Assembly (NCBI GenBank): GCA_946902875.1
Contig: OX336345.1
Span: forward strand, 11,563,395 to 11,627,394
Source of the DNA: Nematopogon swammerdamellus
Lineage: Eukaryota > Arthropoda > Insecta > Lepidoptera > Adelidae
DNA: 64,000 nucleotides
Direction of reading: 5' to 3'
The position numbers and the translations under genes were made by a program. Positions 1 through 63,926 of the stretch are shown here, one piece after another; the stretch's first letter is position 1, and each line of letters starts with the position of its first letter. The notes under the pieces are model-generated. The model was not told the origin of the DNA, ran no database searches, and saw only the letters and a program-made list of their open reading frames with translations.

Positions 1-1021
1 TGCACTATTTAATCATTCAGTGATTCAGTTACGTCAGTCGATCAGTGGTGTCACGCTGAACAGCTGAGCTCCGAAAATTTGTTTTAATCTTAAATATTTT
101 GTTTACTTAATTTCACATTTTCATATTTTCAGCACAACATATAAACATTTACGTACATTTTACCAGGGATAGTCATTTCATTGGGGGTTTTTTTTTTGTT
201 AGGCTGCTACTCAGCATGCTCCAGACTCTTGACGTCACATAGCACACTGCGCAATGCCTCCGAATATGGCAATGATGGTTGGTTGTACATTGGGGTCGCA
301 AGTCGTCCATAAATATTCCTCAGAAAAAAATTATACATCTGCCCATTACGTTCTAATTTATCAAAGAATTAATGAAATAATAAATGTGAAAGATGTCCGA
401 GCACGCAGGCCACGTCTCAGTGAAATTGTTTTCCATCCGCTTATAAGCCCATACACGTCACGGCGACCCATCTCAACGCCGCCGCCGCGCTGGTCGGCGA
501 GCCGCAGTTTCAACCGCTCTGTCGTTTCATGTTTGAGCGCGCACAAAAATTGGCCAGTCCGTCCGCGGCCGCCCACCAAATCGCCGCATCCAATGATTAA
601 TGAACGTTAACGGACAATATAAATAGATTAATTTTCGGAAAAGGATGCTTCTGAAAAGGGCAAACGGGTAATTTCTCATGTAAAAGGTTGTTTAGTCGAA
701 AAATAAAAATGTTCGCCCGCCCCATGAATTGAATTTCTTACAGTTGTTAAGTAGTTTGAATATTACCTAATTTCTGCGTCCGAGGATCTTCAGTACTGCG
801 ATGTTAATAGTACACCGTTTAGTTTCGACAGGAACACAGTGGGTGTAATGGGCGACATTAATAAATTATTACGAAGGTATTAGGAAGCGATTTATTTTTG
901 GTTTATATAAATGAAATAATATGAGAGTTAGTTTTATTAATTTATGTGTTTGTAAAAGGCGATAAATAATTTACATAATAGTAACGTTGTTCGCGTTCGT
1001 GACACCTGAAGATCCTCAAGT

Positions 1022-1215
1022 GACACGCGCCTCATAGGTGGTGCCAAATAAAGAGCAAATGGTCTGCAGCCGCCCTGGTCATCTTGTGGTCTTCATGGAG
1101 GACATAGACTGGCTGGAGTGGCTGGGGATCAAGGAGTTTTGAAAAAAAGGTCCCCGACCAAGAGGGACTAGTTTGCAGGCTTAGAGCTAAGCCATACAAC
1201 AATAACAACCAGCAA
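1022..1215 (-). repeat. Dispersed repeat F, minus orientation
   Basis: Read on the minus strand this matches, with many differences, the plus-strand stretch at 47340-47500. Both share the 'CCTGCAAACTA' start, a 'GGGGACCT' block and the 'CTATGTC(T/C)TCCATGA' block. The short open frames in the two copies look alike only because of that relationship. I cannot assign a transposon class. Confidence 0.5.
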
Positions 1216-1632
1216 GTAGTATCCACAAACATTGCAATTGAAAAGAGTAAATTCACATTTTTAATTTGACATAACGCAAATAATTCACACAGGAAAATAG
1301 CTATATTTTTTCTACCTCAGATATACTCGAATTTGGATTACAATCTTCCTAAAAAAGCTAAAGAGAGAATAGCGGGAGGGGTTAGGAAGAAACAGAAAAT
1401 AATTTCCTCTTCGCCTCTTTTCATCAATTGATCGGGGCCAGATGGCGCCACAATTATTCTTTTTTTTTTTGCGTTAGACTCGTCAAGCCGATTTTGGGTC
1501 ATCCTTTCAACTATTTATTTAAAATCTCTGAGAGAGGAAATTCAAAGATTCGTTCTTCATCATCACTTATAAAATTGCGGCGTTCAAATTTAGATTTGAG
1601 ATTAGTTGGGGCTTATGTTAGATTGCCTTTTT

Positions 1633-2020
1633 AGGGTTCCGTGTCCGTACGAAAACCTATTACTAAGCCTACGCCGGCGCCGTTAGTCTGTCTGTCTGTC
1701 TGTTCGTCCTTTCGTCCGTACTAGGGCTGTGTATCTTTTGAACCTTAACCGCGGTTGAAATTTTCACAGAATATGTGTTATTATGGCGGATGTGCCAACA
1801 AATAATAAAAAAATATTTTTTTTAACTATGGGTCCCTATACAATAAATGGGCTAAGAATCGATTAGTACATATTCACGCTACCAAATCATAGTTGGCGAC
1901 ACAGGTAGTTTTCATTGCAGACAGAAAAAAGATAGGCGGATATGGTTTTTTGACACGTATGGTATAGCTCATCTACGGAACCTTCCGTGCGCGCATAAAA
2001 CTCGCACTTGACCAATTGTT
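1633..2020 (+). repeat. Dispersed repeat E, plus orientation
   Basis: It begins at 'AGGGTTCCGT' and has a (TCTG)n/(TCCG)n microsatellite, a 'TTTTCACAGAATATGTGT' block, 'AACAAATAATAAA', a 'GGTCCCTATAC' block and a terminal 'AAACTCGCACTTGACC'. The same order of blocks occurs at 37290-37735 and, reversed, at 12656-12852, 45563-45807, 46212-46565 and 51170-51385. It looks like a non-autonomous element abundant in Lepidoptera. No coding capacity was seen. Confidence 0.65.
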
Positions 2021-2148
2021 TATATTTTACAAGTAAGTATTAAGCTGACGTAGAATTTACAATTAACATAAATCATAATTATAGTAAAATATCCCACTCT
2101 TTGTACAATTTTTATTACTGAACCCTAAAACATTTTATTTTTATTTTT

Positions 2149-2426
2149 ATGGAAACTGACACGGTTGGCTACATCACCTACAACATCCGTGATATCAACC
2201 CATAACACCGGGTGAACTTAGTACCACGTCAGTGCTACCCTTCGGTCGTGCCGGCTACACTGAACTGGACGGAAAACACAAACTATTTATGTACATAGCC
2301 GTTTGGACCGACCTTTCATTCAGTGCGGTGGTACCAGCACGGGCGGGTTAAACCCTACCACATAGTAATATAAGAAGGGAGTCATATCCCTTACTCACCT
2401 TTTACGAAATACACGGGGAGAGATGC
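2149..2426 (-). mobile_element. SINE A, minus orientation, variant lacking the tRNA/5S head
   Basis: It reads in reverse from the poly(A) end (TTTTTAT at 2142-2149) through 'ACTGACACGGTTGGCTAC', 'CATAACACCGGGTGAAC' and 'GAACTGGACGGAAAACAC' to 'CCCTACCACATAGTA'. It ends in the alternative block 'ACACGGGGAGAGATGCAG' instead of the head seen at 25444-25792. The copy at 63455-63770 has the same alternative end. Confidence 0.75.
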
Positions 2427-4970
2427 AGTTTCAAAAGTCTAATAAGGTTTTAAGGAAATAAATTAATTTATCGTTGCAATAAAACACTTGAAATGCTGTC
2501 CTACTCTAGACATATTATTTTTTTGGACATTTATTTACAAAACCTTTTCAAAATAGTAAACATGCTAACTCAAGCTAATTTTGAAAGTTATAGACCACAG
2601 TTATAGACTAATGCATAACATATATTTTTCACTGAGAACCTACTCATATTTACCAATAGCTCAACAATATCTCTCAAGGTCAAGGTTTTTTGTTTGAGTG
2701 TTATTTCCACCCATCACAAAAACGCGGCAAAAACCGCAAGTTAATGCGATCGAGCGATTAAATTGATTCTCCAATGACGGCCAGCCAAAATATAGGGTGT
2801 GTAATAATCACTTGACAGCTGCTATGACGTCACATCGTCCGCTCATTGTCTGATGATGAGAGTGCGGACACAATGCTTGGCGAAATATTATATTTGAGGG
2901 AAAACTTGAATCACTTTGCAGGAATACAACTATACATATTATCGTGCTGTACAAAACATAAGAAAATAAAATACAATGTTACACGCATCTTCAAACTTTG
3001 TCCAACCGGCTTATTGGAGGTGGAAGCTAGTGGTGTGACAAATGTCCATCATCATAATGTATCCTATATGGAACATCAGCTACCCTCATAGACAATTTCA
3101 GAAAACACGATGTTTTAAGACTGCGGTAAAATTAATAGAAGTGCGTTCTCATACAAAATAGTTCACAAATTCTGACACAAATAATTGGCACCAGCCGCAT
3201 ACAAAACTGATGTCTGACATTATGATAATCATGGTAATACTTATGTGCAACAAATTTGATACCCTACCCTATCCTTTATTATTTTTTTTTTCCTCCATGT
3301 TTAAAGTGAATAAATAGATGGCCAACATATAGAAACAGATGGATAGGTACCGGGGTGTATGTATAAAGCCGTACCGTGGAACTTTCTCAGGTCTCTTCCC
3401 ACACCCAGGTTATAGAATAGAATAGAATAGAAATGCTTTATTGCACACAAAAACACAGAGATACACAAGGCAGAAGACAACATACAGAAGAGTAATTATA
3501 AACTAACAATACTATCTGAATCTGAATACTATATCGTTATCTGAAGTAAATAAATGTATAGCATTTTTCTTTCATCTTTTGTGTCTGTTCTTCTTTTGAA
3601 CTTTTAGGCACAGAAACCCGTGCTGGTTGTCCATAAAAAAATGCTCAAAAAGTTATAATTTAAAAAATACATACAAAATGTGTAATTTTTTATACAAAAT
3701 AAAAAACTCAAAACAATTTATATATCAATAAGTAGGTGTTTATAAAAAAATAATTTATTATTTGTCGATTATTTTTCGTCTCCTAATAGGCTCGGCTACA
3801 TGCTGGTGAAAGGTACACGGTACATCTTTACATCCTTTATTATTAGACATTTCCAATCTTAGTGCCGAATACAATGTGTACATCGACCCTCACCTAACTG
3901 CATAGAGACAACATTCCTATCAAAATAAAAAGGCAGCACTTTTCAGTCATTATAACATAAAGGGATGACCAGATCGAGCAAACACGTTTCGCACTCAAGG
4001 GAGGCGAGCTTGCACAATAGCGTCAATTTGGCCCGATTGTCCCTCACTCAATCACTAAAACCGAACATATCACCCACACGGGAATACGTAGTCGACACCT
4101 AACCTAGTGTCAGTAACGGACGAGATAAATTTCATTCCAAAACGCAACCGACTAGTTTGTAGCAGAGTTTGGCCTATTGTCGTCACTATGAACCTGTTCC
4201 GTGACGCTAGACACGGCCGCCGGGCGGCGCGCGTGGCGTTAGGCCAAGCAATAAAGGTCTTGCCAAGAACACGCATAAATTTTGCGGTTGGCACCACGGC
4301 CGACAACGTGCTCGTATGCAGATTGTGCACTTCGAACTGCGCCGTTGGAATGTATGTTCGAAATTCGATTGGCCCAGCACATTGTTTAAAAAGTTTGTTG
4401 ATCTTGTGGCTCTGCCATAGCCTACTATTATTATAGAGAGAAATAAATAGATGACTCTACTGTTTTGCGAAACGTATAGCATAACATACCTAATTATAAA
4501 AATGTTGAAAAAGTTCAGTTTCACCGGCAATTTCTTACAAAATCAATAAATAAAGTACACTGTTGAAAGAACAACGAATGAGGGATAAAGGCTTGCCCTG
4601 AAAATGTATAAAAAGTAAAATCTAAATAAATAAATAGCAGCGAAGCCAAAAGCTTCATGAAGAGACTTGGCCCTCTGCTGGTGGACACAACTGGCGTCCC
4701 GCAATTAAGGGCCTACTTTATTCAAAGGCTTGTCATCCAGCGGTGTAATGACGCAAGTGTTTTGGGAACTATTGAAAACGTCCCTTTTTATTATCATTGG
4801 ATAATATTTGTTAGGTGGGTTTTTATTATTTAGTCTTTTTTATATTTTCTTCTATTTCAAATAAATAAAATCAATATTCCAAATATGTGGTTGTACAAAA
4901 ATACGCTAAATAGTGATAATTAAAATGAGCCAGCACTTTTGTGACGACATTGCCGGGTAAAATTTAAGCA

Positions 4971-5234
4971 TGCAAATCGAAAATCATTGGAAAAAATACA
5001 TCCCGACCAGGATTTGAACCGGGTCTCTGGTTTGAGCCGCCGACGCGATAACCAACTACACCACCGGGCCGTTACGTATTATGCCCAAATTTTCGTTCTA
5101 TTGCACTTCATGATGTCGCATAATTTGTAACGGCCCGGTGGTGTAGTTGGTTATTGCGTAGGCGGCTCAAGCCAGAGACCCAGGTTCAAATCCTGGTCGA
5201 GATGTATTTTTTCCAATGATTTTCGATTTGCATT
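4971..5234. mobile_element. Head-to-head pair of tRNA-like SINE copies forming an inverted repeat
   Basis: Left arm about 4971-5074 (minus) and right arm about 5127-5234 (plus) are near-identical reverse complements separated by roughly 50 bp. Each carries a tRNA-like head (about 5001-5071 and 5131-5202) with A-box 'GGTGTAGTTGG' and B-box 'GGTTCAAATCC'. Each ends in the same 3' block, 'TTTCCAATGATTTTCGATTT'. I could not fold a clean anticodon arm, so these are SINE heads rather than functional tRNA genes. Confidence 0.65.
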
Positions 5235-7271
5235 TTTCTAATTAAAAATATATATAAAGCGAGTACGTGCTTAAAATTTAAGCAATAATTCCTCTTTCAC
5301 TAATTTCATTCTAAATGCACACTGACCGACAAAATACACATTACAAACACAGCCACAATTGTTTGACGATTTTCAATTTATCGACGGACATGAACTACGA
5401 GTATTTCACTGGACAATTTTCATTTGAAATCGAGTTTACATTGCAATTTCATTTGCGTTATTAGGTCATTAATTTACTGTGCTATTGACATTCTATCTCA
5501 ATTAAATTAGCTAATTTAAAGTGAGCCCATAACATTTTTTTCTACCAGCTCTAGTTGACGTCTATTGTCAAAATTGAGTAACATCAATTGGCTGAACGAA
5601 ACAATACATTGCGAATAATTGTATAATAATGTAGAGAAGAAGTAATTGGGGATTGACGTACTATTTTTGTATTTTTTGTAATAATATCATTGCAACCAAC
5701 GAGCACACACAGTTTTTTTTATTTTTCCACGAAACTATTACTTCCTGCTTTCAAGGAACTCTTACATGGAAACTTAGCGCGTAGCTAAGGGTTCAATAAA
5801 TGATCACAATAAATCCAACTTTACTCCACAACCCAAAAGAAAAGTGGCAAAATAAAACCATCTCTTTAGCAATAGTTGTGTCCTCCGCTTAATAGTGAGT
5901 TATGGTCGAAGAATAAGTGTCTTCGGACACTTGAGGGTCATTAAATGGCATTTTAGGGACGAATAAAAACCTTCTTCGTTGAGACAAAGAATGTTTTGTC
6001 TGTCCAAAAGTCTCCTTTAAGCTACATATTTATACTATAATGGATTTTGTGTGAAAGAGATCTTGACTGAAAGAAATAAAGCCGTATACGGTAAAATAAA
6101 TAACACAAACTTCAAAATAACTTTTTATACTTTTACACGATATGTTATTATAGCAATCATTGTGAAAATATATTCATTATAACGCTGAAAATTAAAATTA
6201 AAGTCCGCCTTCGGTACATACATATGTTAATTTTAAACGCGTCACATATTACCTGAAGAAAATGTGTAGTAGTTTTTTTTTTCAAACCAAATTCCGTGAA
6301 AACAGTTAATCAATTCTCGAGTCTCATTATTTTTATTATATAAAAATTAGGAAGACAGCGCTCCTGAAAGCTGCAATAAACTTTTCTGCTAATCACTTTG
6401 CTGAAACCGGGAAAATTTCTCAACATTTTCTTACAACTCTAAGTGATGTCACAGAACGTTTTAGCAAAACACATAAATCACAAACTAGGTCATAGCAATC
6501 ACTGGTCACATAAGTGGTGCGATGCTTGATAGAGATTTAGTATCAGTTGGATTGTGACAACAAGGTTACGCCTATTGCGCGGGCCTTATTATACTTGGTA
6601 AAACCTCTGTCTATGTCATAGATGGCCCGTGTACTGGCAATCTAGCTTGGAGTACTTATGTAGTTGAATAAAATACTTTTTCTTTTTACTTCACTATTGT
6701 GTGTGTATTATACTTTGTCGAAGCTGAAAATGTCCCATTTGATTGAAGTCATTTCATGTTTTCCAATCAAAGTTTAAAGCGAAATAAAATTCGAATAATT
6801 TTCACACTTTAATATTTAGTTATATGTATGTAGGCAATCAAATGTATTTATTTATTTTTCAACAATGAGAGGAGAAAGATTAAATATGAATTTACTATCG
6901 AATATTCTACGGAAAAAAATTTGCTGGTTGCCGAATTTTCTCTACGACCTTTTAAAAGTAAACAGCTGATAGTGGCGCCCTCTAGTGCAAACTCCTTGAC
7001 AACCGCCGAACTCTTCAACCGCGACACAGCCGCAGACCCACGCCGCGCCGAGCTTGAAATTCTAAACTTTATATCTGACTACAACTTGCATTTCCTTCTG
7101 CGTTACCTAATGCATATAACTTTAGTTTCAACATGCAACTTCAAAGCATTGATGTTAGCGGAGTAAATGTTGAAATTGCAATGCATCTCCGCGAAATGAA
7201 CACAGTCGATGCCTTGTAACGTTCGAATAGCTTAGAAGTACGGGTTTATGTGAAAGAATTTATTATAGTAA

Positions 7272-7456
7272 GGGGGGTTACAGTCACACGCTCCGACCAG
7301 CCAATATCACCCCCGAGAAGGTGCCATAATTTTTGTTTATGGCAACTGACACGGTTGGCTACGTCACCTTCAACATCCGTGATGTCAGCCCATAACACCG
7401 GGTGAACTTGGTGCCACGTCAGTGCTTCCACTCGGTCGTGCCATACCGGAGACTTC
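7272..7456 (-). mobile_element. SINE A fragment inserted in a SINE B fragment
   Basis: Bases 7272-7320 and 7446-7456 match adjacent parts of SINE B in minus orientation (compare the body of 61352-61760). They are interrupted by a 5'-truncated SINE A whose reverse tail begins near 7329 and ends near 7437. The 8-bp word GTGCCATA flanks the insert (7321-7328 and 7438-7445), as expected for a target-site duplication, although SINE A itself supplies a GTGCC at that point. The outer SINE B stops exactly where the exon array begins. Confidence 0.6.
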
Positions 7457-8377
7457 GTCGGTCTTCGCGATGCTGGTGCTGCCCCGAAGTGCCTACCACT
7501 TGAGACCCAGATCATCATTGTTGTCCATATTGTGTCCGCAGGGCTGTGTGCTAGTGATTAGTGTGACGTGGATTCTGTCTGTGTCGCTCTTCGCGATGCT
7601 GGTGCTGCCCGGAAGTGCCTACCACTTGAGACCCAGATCATCATTGTTGTCCTTATTGTGTCCGCAGGGCTGTGTGCTAGTGATTAGTGTGACGTGGATT
7701 CTGTCTGTGTCGCTCTTCGCGATGCTGGTGCTGTCCGGAAGTGCCTACCACTTGAGACCCAGATCATCATTGTTGTCCTTATTGTGTCCGCAGGGCTGTG
7801 TGCTAGTGATTAGTGTGACGTGGATTCTGTCTGTGTCGCTCTTCGCAATACTGGTGCTGCCCGGAAGTGCCTACCACTTGAGACACAGATCATCATTGTT
7901 GTACTTATTGTGTCGGCAGGGCTGTGTGCTAGTGATTAGTGTGACGTGGATTCTGTCTGTGTCGCTCTTCGCGATGCTGGTGCTGCCCGGAAGTGCCTAC
8001 CACTTGAGACCCAGATCATCATTGTTGTCCTTATTGTGTCCGCAGGGCTGTGTGCTAGTGATTAGTGTGACGTGGATTCTGTCTGTGTCGCTCTTCGCGA
8101 TGCTGGTGCTGCCCGGAAGTGCCTACCACTTGAGACCCAGATCATCATTGTTGTCCTTATTGTGTCCGCAGGGCTGTGTGCTAGTGATTAGTGTGACGTG
8201 GATTCTGTCTGTGTCACTCTTCGCGATGCTGGTGCTGCCCCGAAGTGACTACCACTTGAGACCCAGATCATCATTGTTGTCCTTATTGTGTCCGCAGGGC
8301 TGTGTGCTAGTGATTAGTGTGACGTGGATTCTGTCTGTGTCGCTCTTCGCGATGCTGGTGCTGCCCCGAAGTGGCTA
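7457..8377 (+). repeat. 126-bp tandem array duplicating the 5' part and acceptor of the GPCR TM4 exon
   Basis: The landmark CTTCGCGATGCTGG starts at 7463 and recurs every 126 bp (7589, 7715, a variant at 7841, 7967, 8093, 8219, 8345), giving about seven full units plus partial ends. Each unit holds about 45 bp of intron-like pyrimidine-rich sequence ending in a CAG acceptor, then about 80 bp coding TM4 of the receptor. Acceptors fall at 7541, 7667, 7793, 7919, 8045, 8171 and 8297. The unit is 42 codons with no stop, so the frame stays open from 7422 through the true exon. Only the last copy continues into extracellular loop 2. The fourth unit is the most diverged; the others are nearly identical, which implies recent expansion. 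Confidence 0.9.
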
Positions 8378-8437
8378 CTACTTCAACTCTACCGGACTCA
8401 TGGCTTGCGATGTCTTCCACAGCCGAATAGCTTATCG
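8298..8437 (+). CDS. Orphan class A GPCR, exon with TM4 and extracellular loop 2
   Basis: First receptor exon in the window. It starts after the last array acceptor (CAG at 8295-8297) in phase 0 and ends at the consensus donor GTAAGA in phase 2. It encodes 46 full codons. TM4 contains 'VISVTWILSVSLF' with the conserved TM4 tryptophan (W4.50), and a proline ends the helix (VLPRSG). The extracellular loop 2 segment 'FNSTGLMACDVFHSR' has an N-glycosylation sequon (NST) and the cysteine expected to bond to the top of TM3. The split last codon (CG|G, Arg) is completed by the next exon at 10596. Upstream acceptors in the array could lengthen this exon by multiples of 42 codons. That it is a class A GPCR follows from all five exons together; the ligand is unknown. 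Confidence 0.85.
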
Positions 8438-10595
8438 GTAAGAAATCTCATTTAGAAATTATTTGTTATTATATTTTAATAAATTGTTATATAGTTTATT
8501 TTATATTATTCACATTAAAACATAATTTATAAAAACTTCAATGATTAAAATTAAACGCTAAGCACAAGGGACTTGTTTGTTCTTAAGGCAATTTGCAAGC
8601 TATAGAGCGGGAACAGAGGAAAACAGACACCCACACTGGATGGCGGGTACTTTGCTTGCTCAAACGACAACAATCAGTTTACATAAAGATATAATTGTGA
8701 AAGATGCGTCTTCATATTCCCGCAGCTTCTCCATTTGTCTTAGTTTTCCGGGACCCCGTACCACGCCTCTTTCTCGTTGCCTCTGATTGTAGATCTAAAC
8801 GCGAGTCGTGGTCGCTTCTAGAAATACCTACTTAAATGTCTTTGACACGATACCTATAATTACGTAATTTTTTTGAAACGAATATCTAATAATTATGAAG
8901 TACATACTTTTGGTAATGTGCACATTAAAGTGCTGAAGCAGTTTATAATGCAGGTGTATTTCTCAAAAATAATATTGAATGTTATTTTACCTTTTAACAA
9001 CATTAAAATTAATTTCGATTTTTCCATAGTAAATTTGAATAATTCTCATAAATAAATATGAATAATTTCATTGCAAATTTACAACACGCTCGTATGCATT
9101 CCAGTCATCCGTTACTATCGAGGCGTAAAATGTATTTTTAATTAACATCTCTGTCCCATCCCATAACACTGTTCCTGTCATAAACGTTGTCTTTCAGTTT
9201 ACTTAGTTTTTTTGAAATTCTGATCATTACTAGTAGGTACCGAATATTTTAAAAATAATGTAAGCAGGTAAGTGTCATTTAGAAAAGCAAAAGAAATGAC
9301 GAATTGCGAATTTTAAAGTCCTTGTAGGTCTTACAATATTTTTATTTTATTTCATTCTAATAACTCTCTCCTCAATAATATCCTCTCAAAACTCTGAAAT
9401 TTAAGACAGACCAAAGCCTTACAATATGTCAACTGCAAAATATAGGACAAACTCTTTCCACAAGACAGTTTAAGCTGTTAAAATGCCCACTCTAGCCATA
9501 CTAAAGCCGCGAGGGGCGTTCAAAAAGTTCTCTCACGTCTCCGTGCAGAGAATTTCTCTGGCTCTGTGCGTAGTGAGCACACCCGGGCAGGATGTCGTTT
9601 CATAACTTCGTTGACTAACTAGGACGGACTTCTAGAATTTGTCCTTCGGTTTACATGTGTAAGCAAAACTTTATTATAATGTGTGAGCAATTCAACTTCT
9701 AAACAACGATACGCTCATGTAACAAACATCGTCATCACCCATTTAAATTACTATTGCTGTGTACATGCGTCTCTCATTGCTATTGCTATGAGGGATACTA
9801 ATCGAACACCAAGGTAGTTACATACTAAAGTAAGAGAAACCGAAAGAGAGGCGTTATAATCTACTTTGTCACTTTCTAATAGGGTGACCATGGTGCACAT
9901 ATACTTATAATTCTGCAATTTATATGATTGATTTATTCTGTTCACAGATTTGAAAAAAAAAGTGGCCGCCACTTTGAAATTTTTCGAAAATTTGAAATTT
10001 CGACATCTGAGAGTACATGTGGACCCCGAACGCAAATCTGTTGTCAAAATGGAAAAATGTGACCGCCATTTTGAACTTTTCAATTACTGAACCTCCAAAT
10101 TCGATTTAATATGAGTTCACGTTGACCCCGAACAATAGTCTGTTATCAAAATTGAAAGTTATGGAAAGAAATCCCTCTAGTATGTCATACAAATGTTGCA
10201 ACGAAAATCATAATTTAGTTTTTCCTAGTTTTGAAGAAGCCACGGTATTAATACTGCCATGCATCTATGCTGTACATAATTATATGTGCTAAAGAGACGC
10301 AGTAGATTTACGGAGGTCTGTCTCGGATCGTTTTATCTTTATTATTTCGTTAGAACCAAATGAATCTTATACCATAAACAATAGGGTTAAATTATTTTCG
10401 CTACTTTAAGAGAGTAAGCCTTCCGGTTAGTACCTGCCTACTGGTAATAAGGAAATATCTTTTCTAACACACAACTAAGCCTCGGCGCGCATGGACAACA
10501 CCTTGTATTCGGTGACAAAACAGAACTTCGCTACGATTATTCTTTATTTTTCATACCAGTTAGCACTGCATATGGTATTGGCTTCTTTGTGCCAG
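8438..10595 (+). other. GPCR intron between the TM4 and TM5 exons
   Basis: A 2.16-kb AT-rich intron with GTAAGA donor at 8438 and TTTGTGCCAG acceptor ending at 10595. About 9950-10160 has a degenerate two-unit repeat built on 'GACCCCGAAC' and 'GCC(G/A)CCATTTTGAA'-like words. I see no exon in the rest. A second AG at 10559 would place an in-frame TAG at 10561, so it is not the acceptor used for this frame. Confidence 0.6.
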
Positions 10596-10755
10596 GATCT
10601 TGTCGTGCTGCGCCTACTACTTCCCGACTACGATGGCGCTCATGTATTGCTACGGCTCCGGCTTCCATGTGAACAAGATGAGGGCCAAGTGCGCGGACGC
10701 CAGCCGGCCTGACCACCCGCCGTGCAAGGTAGCGCACAGGGACCATGAGATTGTT
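10596..10755 (+). CDS. Orphan class A GPCR, exon with TM5 and start of intracellular loop 3
   Basis: The exon begins in phase 2, completing the Arg codon of the TM4 exon, and ends in phase 0 before GTGAGT (10756). TM5 reads 'ILSCCAYYFPTTMALMYCYG', with the TM5 proline (P5.50) in 'YYFP' and the tyrosine expected near the cytoplasmic end. It continues into a basic, cysteine-containing loop 3 ('FHVNKMRAKCADASRP'). The joined reading '..HSRIAYR|ILSCCAYYFP..' is seamless, which supports both splice sites. TM5 lacks the serine cluster seen in catecholamine-type receptors, so an aminergic ligand is not implied. Small additional exons within loop 3 cannot be excluded, because the next recognised exon is 29 kb away. 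Confidence 0.85.
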
Positions 10756-39976: not shown

Positions 39977-40105
39977 GTGAGCACAACAACACGCGTTCAC
40001 AGCGTCAGTACTTCCAGAACAATGGCCGCCATGTCACTTGGCTTCATCGTGATGGTGACCCCGGCTACCATCCAGGAAGTAGTCGCCGCATGCACTGGTT
40101 GTAAG
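39977..40105 (+). CDS. Orphan class A GPCR, exon with end of loop 3 and TM6
   Basis: Phase 0 at both ends: acceptor TTGTTCTCAG (39967-39976), donor GTACTA after 'TGTAAG' (40106). A more consensus-like donor at 40101 (GTAAGG) would break the frame with the next exon, so the later one is used here. The exon encodes 43 residues: 'VSTTTRVHSVSTSRTMAAMS', then TM6 'LGFIVMVTPATIQEVVAAC'. F6.44 and P6.50 are present, but the usual CWxP toggle motif is replaced by 'MVTP', so the tryptophan switch is missing. Such departures are known in divergent orphan receptors. Confidence 0.85.
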
Positions 40106-41064: not shown

Positions 41065-41190
41065 GTGCCGGCATCTCTGGATTTCATAGTAACCTGGTTG
41101 GCGCTCAGCAATAGCTTCTGGAATCCATTTCTCTACTGGCTCCTCAACAGTCACTTCAGAAGGATCAGTAACGAGCTCACACAGTTTTAC
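41065..41190 (+). CDS. Orphan class A GPCR, exon with TM7 and helix 8
   Basis: Phase 0 at both ends; acceptor TTCTCTTCCAG, donor GTAACT. It encodes 42 residues. TM7 includes 'IVTWLALSNSFWNPFLYWLL' with an intact NPxxY motif (NPFLY), followed by helix 8 'NSHFRRISNEL'. This motif is the firmest evidence that the gene is a rhodopsin-family GPCR. The 'NSFWNPFLYWLLN' signature reminds me of a group of insect orphan receptors, but I cannot name the orthologue with confidence. Confidence 0.92.
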
Positions 41191-43146: not shown

Positions 43147-43608
43147 GTCTGCTGCAGACGAAAGGATCCACTAGCAGGCTTCGAAAAAAATAAAGGCTGC
43201 TGCGGGTCTTCCACGCCATCTGACGCTCCACCACAGCTCAAGGGGGAGATTGAGGGCCTAGGAGAAAAGTACTGGGGAGAGATCCTCGAGCGCACCGTCT
43301 CTTCCTCGTCTCTACACGCCCTTCAGAAGGCTTGTCATCGAGATCCGCTTCATTGGAACGGGTCCCTGAAGAACTGCTCGGCCAAGACCACCTGCAAGTA
43401 CGATCCGAGATACTTTGACTGTGCACAGGAATACAGGCACTTCGACCGTGGCTCAGCTTTCCGCATCGACGTGTGTGGACAGCCGTGCAGGAGTAAGAAC
43501 TCTGATTTCTGCCTGTTCCGGCCGCCGCCGCTAGAGTACTCGCGTTCTAACCTAAGCCTCGACGAGAACAACTTCAGCAAATGCAACGGCCGCCTGCCGG
43601 ATTTGTGA
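43147..43608 (+). CDS. Orphan class A GPCR, last exon up to the first in-frame stop
   Basis: Acceptor CCGTTGCAG at 43146, phase 0, joining '..SNELTQFY|VCCRRKDPLAG'. This adds a cysteine pair after helix 8, a plausible palmitoylation site. The tail is cytoplasmic: 153 residues, rich in Cys and charged residues, with segments such as 'IEGLGEKYWGEILERTVSSS' and 'KYDPRYFDCAQEYRHFDRGS'. The frame meets TGA at 43606-43608, but it stays open afterwards for 146 codons (next entry). G+C is much higher than in the introns, as for a genuine exon. If the TGA is real, the window's part of the receptor is 338 residues; if it is read through or removed, 485. Confidence 0.85.
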   Translation, partial: VCCRRKDPLAGFEKNKGCCGSSTPSDAPPQLKGEIEGLGEKYWGEILERTVSSSSLHALQKACHRDPLHWNGSLKNCSAKTTCKYDPRYFDCAQEYRHFDRGSAFRIDVCGQPCRSKNSDFCLFRPPPLEYSRSNLSLDENNFSKCNGRLPDL

Positions 43609-44049
43609 GAGTTTCGGGCTTGCCCGGTCTTCGGGCATCGCAGTAACAGCGGCGGCATATACCCCATAGAGAGGTTCAACACAAATATTCACTGGCGATT
43701 TGACGACGTCGCCGGGTTCGAGGAGGATCTGCACGCACTCGAGCAGAACCTCGACAGGATAAGAAGCCTCAGCTTCGAGAACAAGAACTTCGGTCGCGAC
43801 GACGACAATCTGCTCGAGGTGGAGATGAACGACGTGGCCGCCGGCGGTGCAGACGAAAACTCGGAAGAGGAAGATGAGTACGAGGCGGGTTCCAGGGAGG
43901 TCGGCGATGGTGGCCGCGTCCCGGACGAGCGGAGCGAGTGCGCCGCGCACAAGTTCTCGCGACACTCGTCGCTTTCCAACAGGGAGTTGGACGTTATCAA
44001 GGAAAGTTCGCGCAGCTCGAGCGACACAGAAGTGACGCTAACTCGATGA
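43609..44049 (+). CDS. In-frame extension of the GPCR tail after the TGA
   Basis: The reading frame continues for 146 sense codons to TGA at 44047-44049. It has clear coding character: 'SNSGGIYPIERFNTNIHWRF', 'DLHALEQNLDRIRSLSFENK', an acidic stretch 'ENSEEEDEYEAGS' and a serine-rich end 'SSRSSSDTEVTLTR'. Serines next to acidic residues would suit GPCR-kinase or casein-kinase sites. Three explanations fit. One is stop-codon readthrough. Another is removal of the TGA in a small in-frame intron starting at GTGAGA (43605), with lengths of 39 or 69 nt to AG at 43643 or 43673. The third is a nonsense allele or sequence error. The first and third need no unusual splicing. Confidence 0.7.
   Translation, partial: EFRACPVFGHRSNSGGIYPIERFNTNIHWRFDDVAGFEEDLHALEQNLDRIRSLSFENKNFGRDDDNLLEVEMNDVAAGGADENSEEEDEYEAGSREVGDGGRVPDERSECAAHKFSRHSSLSNRELDVIKESSRSSSDTEVTLTR
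43621..43637 (+). promoter_or_regulatory. Stem-loop 12 nt after the TGA, candidate readthrough element
   Basis: TGCCCG, loop GTCTT, CGGGCA: six perfect pairs, five of them G-C. A competing stem, CGGGC (43615-43619) with GCCCG (43622-43626), has only a 2-nt loop. Stable RNA structures shortly after leaky stops promote readthrough in several animal genes; here it is only a candidate. Confidence 0.4.
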
Positions 44050-51669: not shown

Positions 51670-53955
51670 TAACACAGAGTTCTTTATGTACATCTTTATC
51701 TGGGAGGGGCGGCAGTGCCCCCGCCAAGTGGAGCAAACACGGCCGTACCATCCTTTTCTCGAAGCAACTCAGTACTTTTCCAATGTTCCAATGTCGTAAA
51801 TAGCACTCCGGCAAAATGCTGGAAATTTCTTAACACACTCGGGATCGGCAAGCAGGCTACTCCAACGAAACCTAATATCAATATAAATGCATTGAATGCC
51901 CATTTCACAACCCCACCAGTCATCATTGATGCTATGCTTAAATCGAACACTCTCCTTCAGCTTTCACAGCTGCCGATACCCCAGTATAACCCCTTTGTTT
52001 TCAACCCAGTTACCGAACGTGAAGTTAAGAAGATCTTTCTCTCCATTACCACCAAGGCAGTTGGAGCAGACGATTTAAGCCTTGATATGCTGACACCAGT
52101 GTTAGATGAGCTGTTACCCATTATCACTTATATCCTCAATCAGTCTCTGGTAACAAGTTCGTTTCCTAGCATCTGGAAAAAGGCTTTTGTCATCCCTCTG
52201 CCTAAAACGTCCAATCCTGTTTCCTTTAGTCAGTACCGTCCCATCTCAATATTACCTGTCCTATCAAAAATCCTGGAACGCATTGCACACCAGCAACTGT
52301 CTGGATTTCTTTCTCATAACAACCTTTTGAACCCAATGCAATCTGGGTTTCGACCTTCTCACAGTACTGTTACTGCACTTGTCAAAGTCACTGACGATAT
52401 CCGTCTAAGTATGGAAAACAAAGATCTCACTGTTATCGTGTTGCTTGATTTCAGTAACGCCTTCAATGCAGTTGACTTTGATATCATGGTGGAAATGCTG
52501 AGGTCTCTTAACTTATCTCCGCAGGTAATAGATTGGTTTGACTCATACCTTCGTGGTCGCCAGCAACGTGTTAGAAATGACAATGACTTCTCTGATTGGT
52601 ACGATCTAACTGCTGGTGTTCCACAAGGTGGCGTGTTGTCTCCACTACTCTTCGCAATTTTTATAAATTTTGTCTCCAAACTCTTAGTTTCTTTCTACCA
52701 CTTGTATGCCGATGACTTACAGCTATATCTGGGAGGTAGTATTGACGACATAGCTGGAATCATTGATGTGATCAATGCTGATCTGGCCACCATTTTTGGC
52801 TGGACCAGATCCTTTGGACTCATCGTGAATCCGAATAAGTCTCAGGTAATGATTGCCGGAAGTCCTCGACTACTATCGAGGATTGACCGCGCTTCGTTGC
52901 CTGAGATTATGTACAACGGTACTGCCATACCATACGCTAGGGTTGTCAAAAACCTGGGAATCCTTATGGATGACACGCTATCTTGGCAGGCTCAGGTCAA
53001 CGAGGTCAGTCGAAAAGTCTATGCTGCGGCGCACTCCCTGAGACGGCTTCAGAACCTTCTTCCGACCACTACAAAGACAATTTTAGCACAATCGTTGCTT
53101 CTGCCCATTCTTGATTATGCAGATGTATGTTACCTGGACGTTACTGAGGAACTCCTGGATAAGCTTGAGCGTCTGCAAAACATGTGTATACGATTCATTT
53201 TCGGACTACGCAAGTACGACCATGTTTCAGAATATCGCAGACGTCTCAAATGGCTCCCAATCCGTTACCGCAGGAATTCCCACATTCTTAGTCTTCTTTA
53301 CTCATGTCTTAACAACCCCTCTGCTCCCGAGTATCTATCTTCCCGTTTTCAGAACCTATCTTCTCACGGTGTCCCACTTCGGTCTAGTCATGACAATATT
53401 TTAGTTATCTCCTCTCATAAAACTGGTTTTTATACCAACTCATTTTCTGTTCACGCAGCTCGACTGTGGACTTCACTACCACACTTTATCCGACATTGTA
53501 AATCGCTTCCCTTATTCAAAAAACACCTAAAACTGTATTACCTCCGTCAATGTGAAGTAAAAACCTAAAAAACAAAAACCACTTTTGTTCCATACTTACC
53601 TGGATGGACAAGTATGTATGTATGTATATTTATTTGTATATAATATTGTATATATTTAGTAATTTATATGTATTAAACATGTATGGCTTATATTTTACTA
53701 GCATGTACTTATATGTATGTATTAATAAGTATTCTTATTATTAAATTTATCTCCAATTGTCACGCAACTCTTTTGCTACTACCTACTTACATTCCACTAT
53801 ATTATCGAATCTCAAACATCCAAAGGTTGACTGTAAGAAATCTCTGTAAGGGATAAGTCCGCCTTTGCACCTTATGTAAATTTTCCAATGTATTTGTTAC
53901 TGTTTAATGTTTACTGGAGCAATAAAGAATTTTCTATCTATCTATCTATCTACTT
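51670..53955 (+). mobile_element. 5'-truncated Jockey-like non-LTR retrotransposon
   Basis: It contains the reverse transcriptase frame (next entry), a 3' UTR of about 350 bp with (TATG)n, the terminus 'GGAGCAATAAAGAATTTTC' and a (TCTA)n tail (53933-53952). The endonuclease half is absent. The left edge is uncertain: recognisable LINE coding begins by about 51780, and the frame opens after a stop at 51670. A second 3' end of the same type is at 37755-37806. Confidence 0.85.
51715..53568 (+). CDS. Reverse transcriptase ORF of a Jockey-like LINE, 5' incomplete
   Basis: It makes cDNA from the element's RNA at a nicked target. There are 617 open codons from the first usable start to TAA, without a break. 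RT landmarks by residue: 'FSQYRPISILPVLSKILERI' (about 171-190), finger-palm 'QSGFRPSHSTVTAL' (209-222), motif A 'VLLDFSNAFNAVDF' (242-255, catalytic Asp 245), motif B 'AGVPQGGVLSPLLF' (300-313) and motif C 'YADD' (331-334). Motif A reads AFNAVD where many elements have AFDxVD; the catalytic aspartates are intact. The post-polymerase region follows ('RLKWLPIRYRRNSHILSLLY'). The N-terminal endonuclease domain is missing, so the copy should not move by itself. The lack of stops suggests a fairly recent insertion. Confidence 0.93.
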   Translation: MPPPSGANTAVPSFSRSNSVLFQCSNVVNSTPAKCWKFLNTLGIGKQATPTKPNININALNAHFTTPPVIIDAMLKSNTLLQLSQLPIPQYNPFVFNPVTEREVKKIFLSITTKAVGADDLSLDMLTPVLDELLPIITYILNQSLVTSSFPSIWKKAFVIPLPKTSNPVSFSQYRPISILPVLSKILERIAHQQLSGFLSHNNLLNPMQSGFRPSHSTVTALVKVTDDIRLSMENKDLTVIVLLDFSNAFNAVDFDIMVEMLRSLNLSPQVIDWFDSYLRGRQQRVRNDNDFSDWYDLTAGVPQGGVLSPLLFAIFINFVSKLLVSFYHLYADDLQLYLGGSIDDIAGIIDVINADLATIFGWTRSFGLIVNPNKSQVMIAGSPRLLSRIDRASLPEIMYNGTAIPYARVVKNLGILMDDTLSWQAQVNEVSRKVYAAAHSLRRLQNLLPTTTKTILAQSLLLPILDYADVCYLDVTEELLDKLERLQNMCIRFIFGLRKYDHVSEYRRRLKWLPIRYRRNSHILSLLYSCLNNPSAPEYLSSRFQNLSSHGVPLRSSHDNILVISSHKTGFYTNSFSVHAARLWTSLPHFIRHCKSLPLFKKHLKLYYLRQCEVKT

Positions 53956-59300: not shown

Positions 59301-59306
59301 AATAAG

Positions 59307-59712
59307 CGACCGGTGGCCGAGTGGTTTCGGCATCGGCTTCTTATGCGAGAGGTCCCAGGTGCGAATCCGGTTTGACGTGTACGAATGAGTTTTTTCTGAC
59401 AAAAGAATTTAAATGCATACCTACACCCGCTGCTTCACCGTTCGGAACCGGTGTAAAACTGTAGGTCCATTCCCGTGCCCCTTACTAGGTGGCAGGCTCA
59501 AATTGTAGCCGACTGGGTTGGTACCACCGTACTGGATGTAAGATGGCCGCATAGCAGCCTCGGTTGTGTTCTCATCTAGTCCAGTATAGCCAGCAATCCA
59601 GGGAAGTCTCCGGTATGGCACCTACCTTCTCGGAGGTGATATTGGCTGGTCGGAGCATGTGCCTTGGCCCCACCGACTACGCCTGCCACACCGGATTACA
59701 TAAAGAAAAATA
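59307..59712 (+). mobile_element. SINE B, full length
   Basis: tRNA-like head with A-box 'GGTGGCCGAGTGG' and a weakened B-box 'GGTGCGAATCC', then 'TACACCCGCTGCTTCACCG', 'AACTGTAGGTCCATTCCC', 'GACTGGGTTGGTACCACCG', 'CAATCCAGGGAAGTCTCCGG' and an A-rich end. The middle of the body resembles SINE A. Confidence 0.85.
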
Positions 59713-61351: not shown

Positions 61352-61760
61352 TACAAGCGGCGGGTGGCCGAGTGGTTTGGGCATCGGCTTCTCATGCGAG
61401 AGGTCCGCGGTTCGAATCCGGTCGGCTTGTACCAATGAGTTTCTTCTGACGAAAAAATTTACGTGCATACCTACACCTGCTGCTTCACCGTTCGGAACCG
61501 GTGTAAAACTGTAGGTCCCTTCCCTTGCCCCTTACTAGGTGGTAGGCTCAAATTGTAGCCGACTGGGTTGGTACCACCTTACTGGATGTAAGATGGCCGC
61601 ATAGCAGCCTCGGTTGTGTTCTCCTCTAGTCCAATATAGCCAGCAATCCAGGGAAGTCTCCGGTATGGCACCTACCTTCTCGGAGGTGATATTGGCTGGT
61701 CGGAGCATGCGCTTTGGCCCCTCCGACTCAGCCACCCATACCGGATAAAATAAAAAAAAA
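61352..61760 (+). mobile_element. SINE B, full length, intact pol III boxes
   Basis: Head from about 61352: 'ACAAGC' pairs with 'GCTTGT' at about 61425-61430 like an acceptor stem. A-box 'GGTGGCCGAGTGG', B-box 'GGTTCGAATCC'. Body as in 59307-59712 with few differences, then an A-rich tail. The A and B boxes are closer to consensus than in the first copy. Confidence 0.87.
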
Positions 61761-63359: not shown

Positions 63360-63926
63360 GTAAGTACACTTATCTTTCACTTTGAAAATGCAATGCAACC
63401 CTTACTCAAGCATTAATCATCCCTTATTAATTTTTTTTTATTTTTATTTTTTTTATTGATGCTGACACGGTTGGCTTCATCACCTACAACATCCGTGATG
63501 TCAGCCCATAACACCGGATGAACTTGGTGCCACGTCAGTGATTCCCTTCGGTCGTGCCGGTTACACTGAACTGGACGGAAAACACAAACTATTTACATAG
63601 CCGTTTCGACCGACCTTTCATTCAGTGCGGTGGTACCAACCCGGGCGGGTTGAACCCTACCACCTAGTAATATAAGAAGGGAGTCATATCCCTTAGTCGC
63701 CTTTTACGACATACACGGGGAGAGATGCAGTGGGGCTATTCTTTTAAAGTACCGGCCCCACACGGTACGGTACGGTATTTATCAGTTTCTTTGTTTATTT
63801 GTTTTGCTTTTGTCAGTAGATTTCAAAAAATATATTCTTTTACATAAAATTTTATAATAGTAAACATTTCCAAAGTAAATAAAATCTTGCTTTCTGGCAC
63901 TTTTTTACTCTCCTTAAAAATTGCAG
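63360..63926 (+). other. Takeout/JHBP-like intron 1 with SINE
   Basis: 567-bp intron, GTAAGT donor and AAAAATTGCAG acceptor. It contains a SINE A copy in antisense orientation (63455-63770). Confidence 0.8.
63455..63770 (-). mobile_element. SINE A, minus, variant 5' end
   Basis: In reverse: 'CTGACACGGTTGGCTTCATC', 'CATCCGTGATGTCAGCCCAT', 'GGTACCAACCCGGGCGGG' and 'CGCCTTTTACGACATACACG', ending in 'AAGTACCGGCCCCACACGG'. The last block also opens repeat C at 14895, so SINE A and repeat C share an end block. Confidence 0.85.

Follow-up and report, generated by a model that had tools for sequence, protein, structure and literature searches.

The TM4 exon of a moth GPCR gene begins inside a tandem array that carries seven splice acceptors, 126 bp apart, in one open frame. 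We propose that the array probably arose by a minisatellite-type duplication across the TM4 intron-exon border, that a decayed upstream copy was amplified, and that the last acceptor makes the receptor. Since the last copy alone still looks like working receptor code, a recent and mostly silent repeat is more likely than a set of new receptor forms. All positions given here are numbered within the window, the whole 64,000-nt stretch of DNA that was analysed. A first-pass annotation of this DNA had described seven acceptors at 126-bp spacing in a single open frame, and Tandem Repeats Finder (TRF), a register alignment and the AG positions all confirm this. It was also right that the exon is a GPCR TM4 exon, that its in-frame acceptors are comparable and that the expansion is recent.

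The array is beyond chance. It is the top-scoring tandem repeat of the window (TRF score 1749 against 233 for the second-best), with a period of 126, 97% matches and 0% indels, and its head-to-tail, near-identical units of tens of bases are those of a minisatellite or VNTR. Each unit is made up of about 40 nt of the 3' end of the intron, including the acceptor, and the first 86 nt of the TM4 exon, while the last 54 nt of the exon (8384-8437) and the donor are single copy. TM4-coding sequence does follow each acceptor, as first described, but only those 86 nt are repeated. The AGs end at the last base of each acceptor row in Table 1, with GGC TGT GTG, the start of GCVLVISVTWILSVSLF, next in every case; the acceptors read CAG/GGC, and GGCTGTGTG follows each AG. 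The acceptor positions in the first-pass annotation (7541 and onwards) stand, but they are the last bases of the intron, so that the exons start one base further on. Compared with the unit at 7961 as reference, the seven units differ at 3, 0, 1, 5, 0, 0 and 3 of 126 bases.

Table 1. Positions of the array, its acceptors, the adjoining repeats and the exons of the receptor gene
Feature	Position	Strand	Remarks
Mosaic of dispersed-repeat fragments adjoining the 5' edge of the array	7282..7456	+	
126-bp tandem array, 7.4 copies	7457..8383	+	TRF, register alignment
Acceptor 1 and intron-derived stretch	7502..7541	+	exon start 7542, giving an 896-nt exon if used; tract slightly weaker
Acceptor 2 and intron-derived stretch	7628..7667	+	exon start 7668
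Acceptor 3 and intron-derived stretch	7754..7793	+	exon start 7794
Acceptor 4 and intron-derived stretch	7880..7919	+	exon start 7920; five private changes in unit, weaker site
Acceptor 5 and intron-derived stretch	8006..8045	+	exon start 8046
Acceptor 6 and intron-derived stretch	8132..8171	+	exon start 8172, exon would be 266 nt
Acceptor 7 and intron-derived stretch	8258..8297	+	exon start 8298; matches the orthologous exon exactly
TM4 exon, 140 nt	8298..8437	+	donor GT at 8438; conserved LPRSGYYF kept
TM5 exon	10596..10728	+	
TM6 exon	39977..40105	+	
TM7 exon	41065..41190	+	
C-terminal tail exon, to TGA stop	43147..43608	+	

How surprising is it that the array can be read through? Its frame is open from 7383 to a stop ending at 8441, and the exon's own frame, with 42 codons and no stop, is the sole open one among the six of the tandem consensus unit. 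The frame had been correctly described as open to 8437, but its supposed start at 7422 does not hold, as it is open from 7383 and the part from 7383 to 7456 consists of dispersed-repeat fragments. These fragments have copies elsewhere in the window, and we rejected them as receptor or first-exon code. The frame neutrality of the unit is itself hardly beyond chance, at roughly 1 in 4 to 1 in 6. The exon part of the unit is open by descent, so only the ~40-nt intron end must be stop-free, and a length divisible by three (1/3) combined with an open intron end (roughly 1/2 to 3/4) is cheap to obtain. At three of the four other acceptors of the receptor gene, the 45 nt upstream are likewise open in the exon's frame.

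Judged by its protein sequence, this lepidopteran gene encodes an amine-type class A GPCR and is homologous to Drosophila CG13579. The exons from TM4 to the C-terminus are intact within the window; those for TM5, TM6, TM7 and the tail have GT/AG borders and continue the frame of the 140-nt TM4 exon. The joined TM4-TM7 product scores above the Pfam 7tm_1 cut-off (33.9 vs 30.5 bits). Protein searches returned 89, 133 (best 120 listed) and 124 homologs (best 120 listed), the last with an all-unit query for which proteins of roughly 320-1017 aa were eligible and only the candidates sharing most words were scored. The named homologs among the matches listed are insects and, lower down, crustaceans, and include D. 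melanogaster CG13579; in the best 120 of 133, the leading whole-length matches are Lepidoptera at about 60-70% identity. From TM4 to the tail, identity to the nearest Lepidoptera proteins is about 70%. Matches among sequences of solved structures are muscarinic, serotonin, dopamine, trace-amine, histamine H2 and GPR52/GPR21 receptors. In a tree of 23 rows, the window falls into a clade with 17 Lepidoptera rows at 100/100 support, with no finer placement within the clade.

We did not find a TM1-3 exon in the window: residues 1-153 of the Chilo ortholog P0092 gave a best tblastn E-value of 1.5 once alignments that run into the array itself were set aside, and in 1-7400 there was none in the list of open segments or among the tblastn matches listed for six Lepidoptera orthologs. 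In a whole gene, the intron ahead of the array would therefore span at least ~7.5 kb; the intron after the TM4 exon is 2158 bp. The upstream phase-0 exon from which splicing had been supposed to start was thus not found in the window, and its predicted phase comes from the orthologs, which have an HSSKK/GCVLVIS junction (HSSKK stands directly before the exon in 20/29 sequences matching a strict motif). Because the orthologs join HSSKK to GCVLVIS, acceptor 8297 yields exactly the orthologous exon. In several annotated lepidopteran orthologs (P0005, P0011, P0102, P0103, P0104), exons immediately before TM4, or else the TM6 or TM7 exon, are missing. These are probably annotation gaps, though they recur around the TM4 exon.

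At the other end of the gene, the frame stays open for 146 residues beyond the TGA of the tail exon (43606-43608), over the region 43606-44046. The end of this extension, VIKESSRSSSDTEVT, is present in 5/220 fetched proteins, all from Lepidoptera (P0102-P0106), and the annotations of these proteins bypass the stop in differing ways. The tail is a candidate for stop-codon readthrough or for a 39-nt mini-intron, GTGAGAG...CGCAG (43605-43643), whose splicing would take out the TGA and keep the frame. Further downstream, 51673-53568 is a long open frame of 631 aa, in which Pfam RVT_1, a reverse transcriptase domain, matches at E = 4.4e-34. Rfam at gathering thresholds gave no match in the window.

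Do the sites themselves favor one of the seven acceptors? On a crude matrix, acceptors 2, 3, 5, 6 and 7 all score 4.37, acceptor 1 scores 3.13 and acceptor 4 scores 3.37, which places all seven at the 97th-99th percentile of the 3213 AGs in the window. The other acceptors of the receptor gene score 3.73 (TM5), 6.49, 8.2 and 5.79 on the same matrix. Site strength does not decide between the acceptors, and this counts against a reading in which only the last is used, since 2, 3, 5 and 6 score like 7 and the sites single out none. It speaks for a leaky competition, in which several acceptors would be used appreciably, the products would be mostly non-functional, and the array would lower or tune receptor output, possibly by its copy number. 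We regard such competition as unlikely, though by no means negligible. The similar scores, close to that of the TM5 acceptor, are in its favor, as are a general preference for upstream 3' sites in a published data set (PMC9225289) and the case of human UBC, where a splice-site array gives an isoform ladder, with regulation not detected (PMC10809524). It is harder to reconcile with the long introns on both sides and with a receptor about 70% conserved with Lepidoptera, for which a heavy loss of correct mRNA should be costly. Moreover, such isoforms occur in no annotated homolog, yet no homolog is known to have the array.

Whichever acceptors are used, the isoforms to expect would lengthen the TM4 exon at its 5' end in steps of one unit; the exon would then measure 140, 266, 392, 518, 644, 770 or 896 nt, and the protein would have 0-6 x 42 additional residues. 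Cassette exons, with a donor of their own in each unit, are unlikely. On a crude donor matrix, no GT scores above 0 in 7420-8436, and the best GT of the two units scanned reaches -0.22 (at 8244), but the real donors of the gene score 3.4, 0.77, -0.12 and -1.61. Two of these four are also below 0, so that a weak donor within the array may yet exist. Dual-specific splice sites of the UBC type were rejected, there being no AGGT anywhere in 7457-8383. Unit 7 has a private change at 8248 (GCC to GAC) that creates GTGAC 50 nt before the last acceptor only. This is a weak branch-point-like word, scoring 2.33 in a crude branch-point scan, and in that scan the array's branch-point candidates beyond -13 are all below the best of the other four exons (3.38-5.91).

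What, then, would select the last acceptor? Carranza et al. (PMC9225289) report a preference for the sites nearest across the exon where the introns on both sides are long. Both introns flanking the TM4 exon are long, so exon definition should apply, and the predicted choice is 8297. Pairing across the exon would favor the shortest exon, and 8297 is also the sole acceptor whose product is a 7TM receptor. The receptor mRNA would accordingly be made with acceptor 8297, donor 8438 and the 140-nt exon. Upstream acceptors may perhaps be used at a low level, chiefly 8171 with its 266-nt exon, which is the likeliest leak predicted, and would then give non-functional long products. Two further points count against the last-acceptor reading. 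For 3' sites, the cited text goes no further than a significant reduction of the upstream preference in long introns, and it is based on human data. In addition, the units are still open and near-identical, as functional repeats would be.

We therefore looked at the array copies as receptor code. The last exon reads LPRSGYYF, like the orthologs, and keeps the G and the second Y of SGYYF. The seven array copies, namely six that follow an acceptor and a partial one ahead of the first acceptor, read LP(G/R)S(A/D)YH, one of them LSGSAYH; the G has become A or D and the second Y has become H in 7/7. Among aligned homolog TM4 rows, the G is kept in 137/145 and the second Y in 141/144, and the R position of LPRSGYYF is K or R in 116/139. 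The F after YY (F in 137/144 homolog rows) is L in the array copies. That change reflects the breakpoint and not decay, because the base sits at the junction with the intron-derived part. The changes among units comprise 10 nonsynonymous, 2 synonymous and 0 stops, whereas about 8.2, 3.1 and 0.7 are expected of 12 random changes, and three of the 10 nonsynonymous changes fall before the first acceptor. With 12 changes and about 0.7 stops expected, the lack of stops so far reflects the recency of the array. Are the copies under constraint as receptor code? As read from these substitutions, the evidence says no: none is visible.

Extra units are also missing from the relatives. A second TM4 copy occurs in 0/143 homologs with a recognisable TM4 exon (of 220 fetched, many of them fragments). 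The TM4 sequence matches once in 141/143 of these and twice in 2/143, the odonate proteins P0197 and P0210, which we rejected as two-unit homologs because each has a single exon split by an insertion. Three peptide words derived from the intron part are absent from all 220 fetched homologs. However, fragments make up many of the homologs and the array is not known from any relative, so that their silence would seem to say more about how old the array is than about whether it is used.

These observations weigh against the proposal, raised in the first-pass annotation, that the units are functional receptor variants. Under it, 0-6 in-frame units would give receptors of differing topology that are maintained by selection. 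A 42-codon unit without a stop fits this proposal, and so does hydropathy, as every unit added brings a single strong hydrophobic peak (KD19 about 2.5), after which come H, R and R. The strong hydrophobicity had been correctly anticipated, yet the same is expected of any copy of a TM4 exon. Frame neutrality is cheap, the conserved G and Y are gone from all copies, the units show no visible constraint and homologs lack an extra unit. One helix repeated with identical flanking charges would, moreover, leave every second copy in the wrong orientation, and we would expect misfolding of the long products rather than useful new topologies. Functional isoforms are thus scarcely credible. The other reading offered at the time, in which selection confines use to the last acceptor, has the better support. 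A combined picture, in which seven-way acceptor competition gives a ladder of in-frame mRNAs, perhaps also of proteins, carrying 0-6 additional membrane segments, and in which a copy number that varies between individuals sets the amount of working receptor, also appears distinctly improbable.

How did the array come about? The last exon differs from an inner copy at 3/86 bases, whereas the inner copies differ mutually at 0-1, unit 4 excepted. As every copy has A (or D) and H and the inner copies are near-identical, the founder probably diverged first and was amplified later. A 126-bp segment joining the intron end and the exon start would have been duplicated first. The upstream copy would then have decayed as intronic sequence, with loss of the conserved G and Y, and its recent amplification would have produced the seven acceptors. 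That conserved residues could be lost from the founder suggests little use of its acceptor even then. The inner five units share the G-for-R change, and the ancestral base is found at both ends, a distribution that would be expected of an array growing from the middle. Could the unit number be an assembly artefact, the real one being different and perhaps much smaller? Near-identical arrays of short period are easily mis-sized, but units 1, 3, 4 and 7 have private changes or combinations that simple doubling does not give, and we consider an artefact very improbable.

The 5' edge of the array adjoins other repeats. In the mosaic there, an outer repeat (7282-7322 and 7438-7456) is interrupted by a 113-bp piece of another repeat (7330-7442), which GTGCCAT flanks on both sides and which recurs elsewhere in the window, seven times nearly in full and twice in part. 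The outer repeat matches 59664-59603 on the minus strand and also, from 7287 on, 61709-61653. Both of these copies run past the point at which the array starts, so the edge of the array is not the end of an element. Two minus-strand copies of a repeat, at approximately 59304-59710 and 61354-61760, are 91% identical over 407 bases and lie about 2 kb apart. The 113-bp piece beside the array is part of a ~300-bp dispersed repeat with many copies (2133-2429, 63436-63731, 30618-30391, 26712-26474 and others).

Why would such an array matter if it is silent? Even then, it is a natural experiment, in which a native gene with long introns sets seven near-identical 3' splice sites, 126 nt apart, before a single donor. 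The proportions in which transcripts use the acceptors would gauge how exon definition, through distance across the exon, decides among sites of near-constant strength. If upstream acceptors are used, the array would show how a minisatellite can burden a conserved receptor gene with transmembrane insertions that stay in frame.

In the open-access texts available on minisatellites, VNTRs, tandem duplications and splice acceptors, we recognised no multiplied acceptor of this kind. Drosophila CG13579 (P0202) and its lepidopteran orthologs (P0090-P0107) belong to the same receptor family as the moth gene, but the start of the TM4 exon is repeated in no fetched relative. Other systems share single features with the array, as far as the available parts of the respective reports describe them. 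Tandem-duplication intron gain (PMC4974935) likewise multiplies splice-site sequence within a gene; there, duplication creates a new intron, whereas in the moth an existing acceptor is multiplied and faces one donor. The 48-bp VNTR in exon 3 of DRD4 (PMC3164202) is also an in-frame tandem repeat in an aminergic GPCR gene. However, the DRD4 repeats lie wholly inside the exon and in the third intracellular loop, while the moth repeat runs across an intron-exon border and would add copies of a membrane helix. Human UBC (PMC10809524) resembles the array in its frame-neutral tandem units, each with a splice site, whose number can vary via splicing. Its sites are AGGT, able to serve as donor or acceptor, and its units are complete functional monomers, whereas the units of the moth array have no AGGT and are partial exons with decayed residues.
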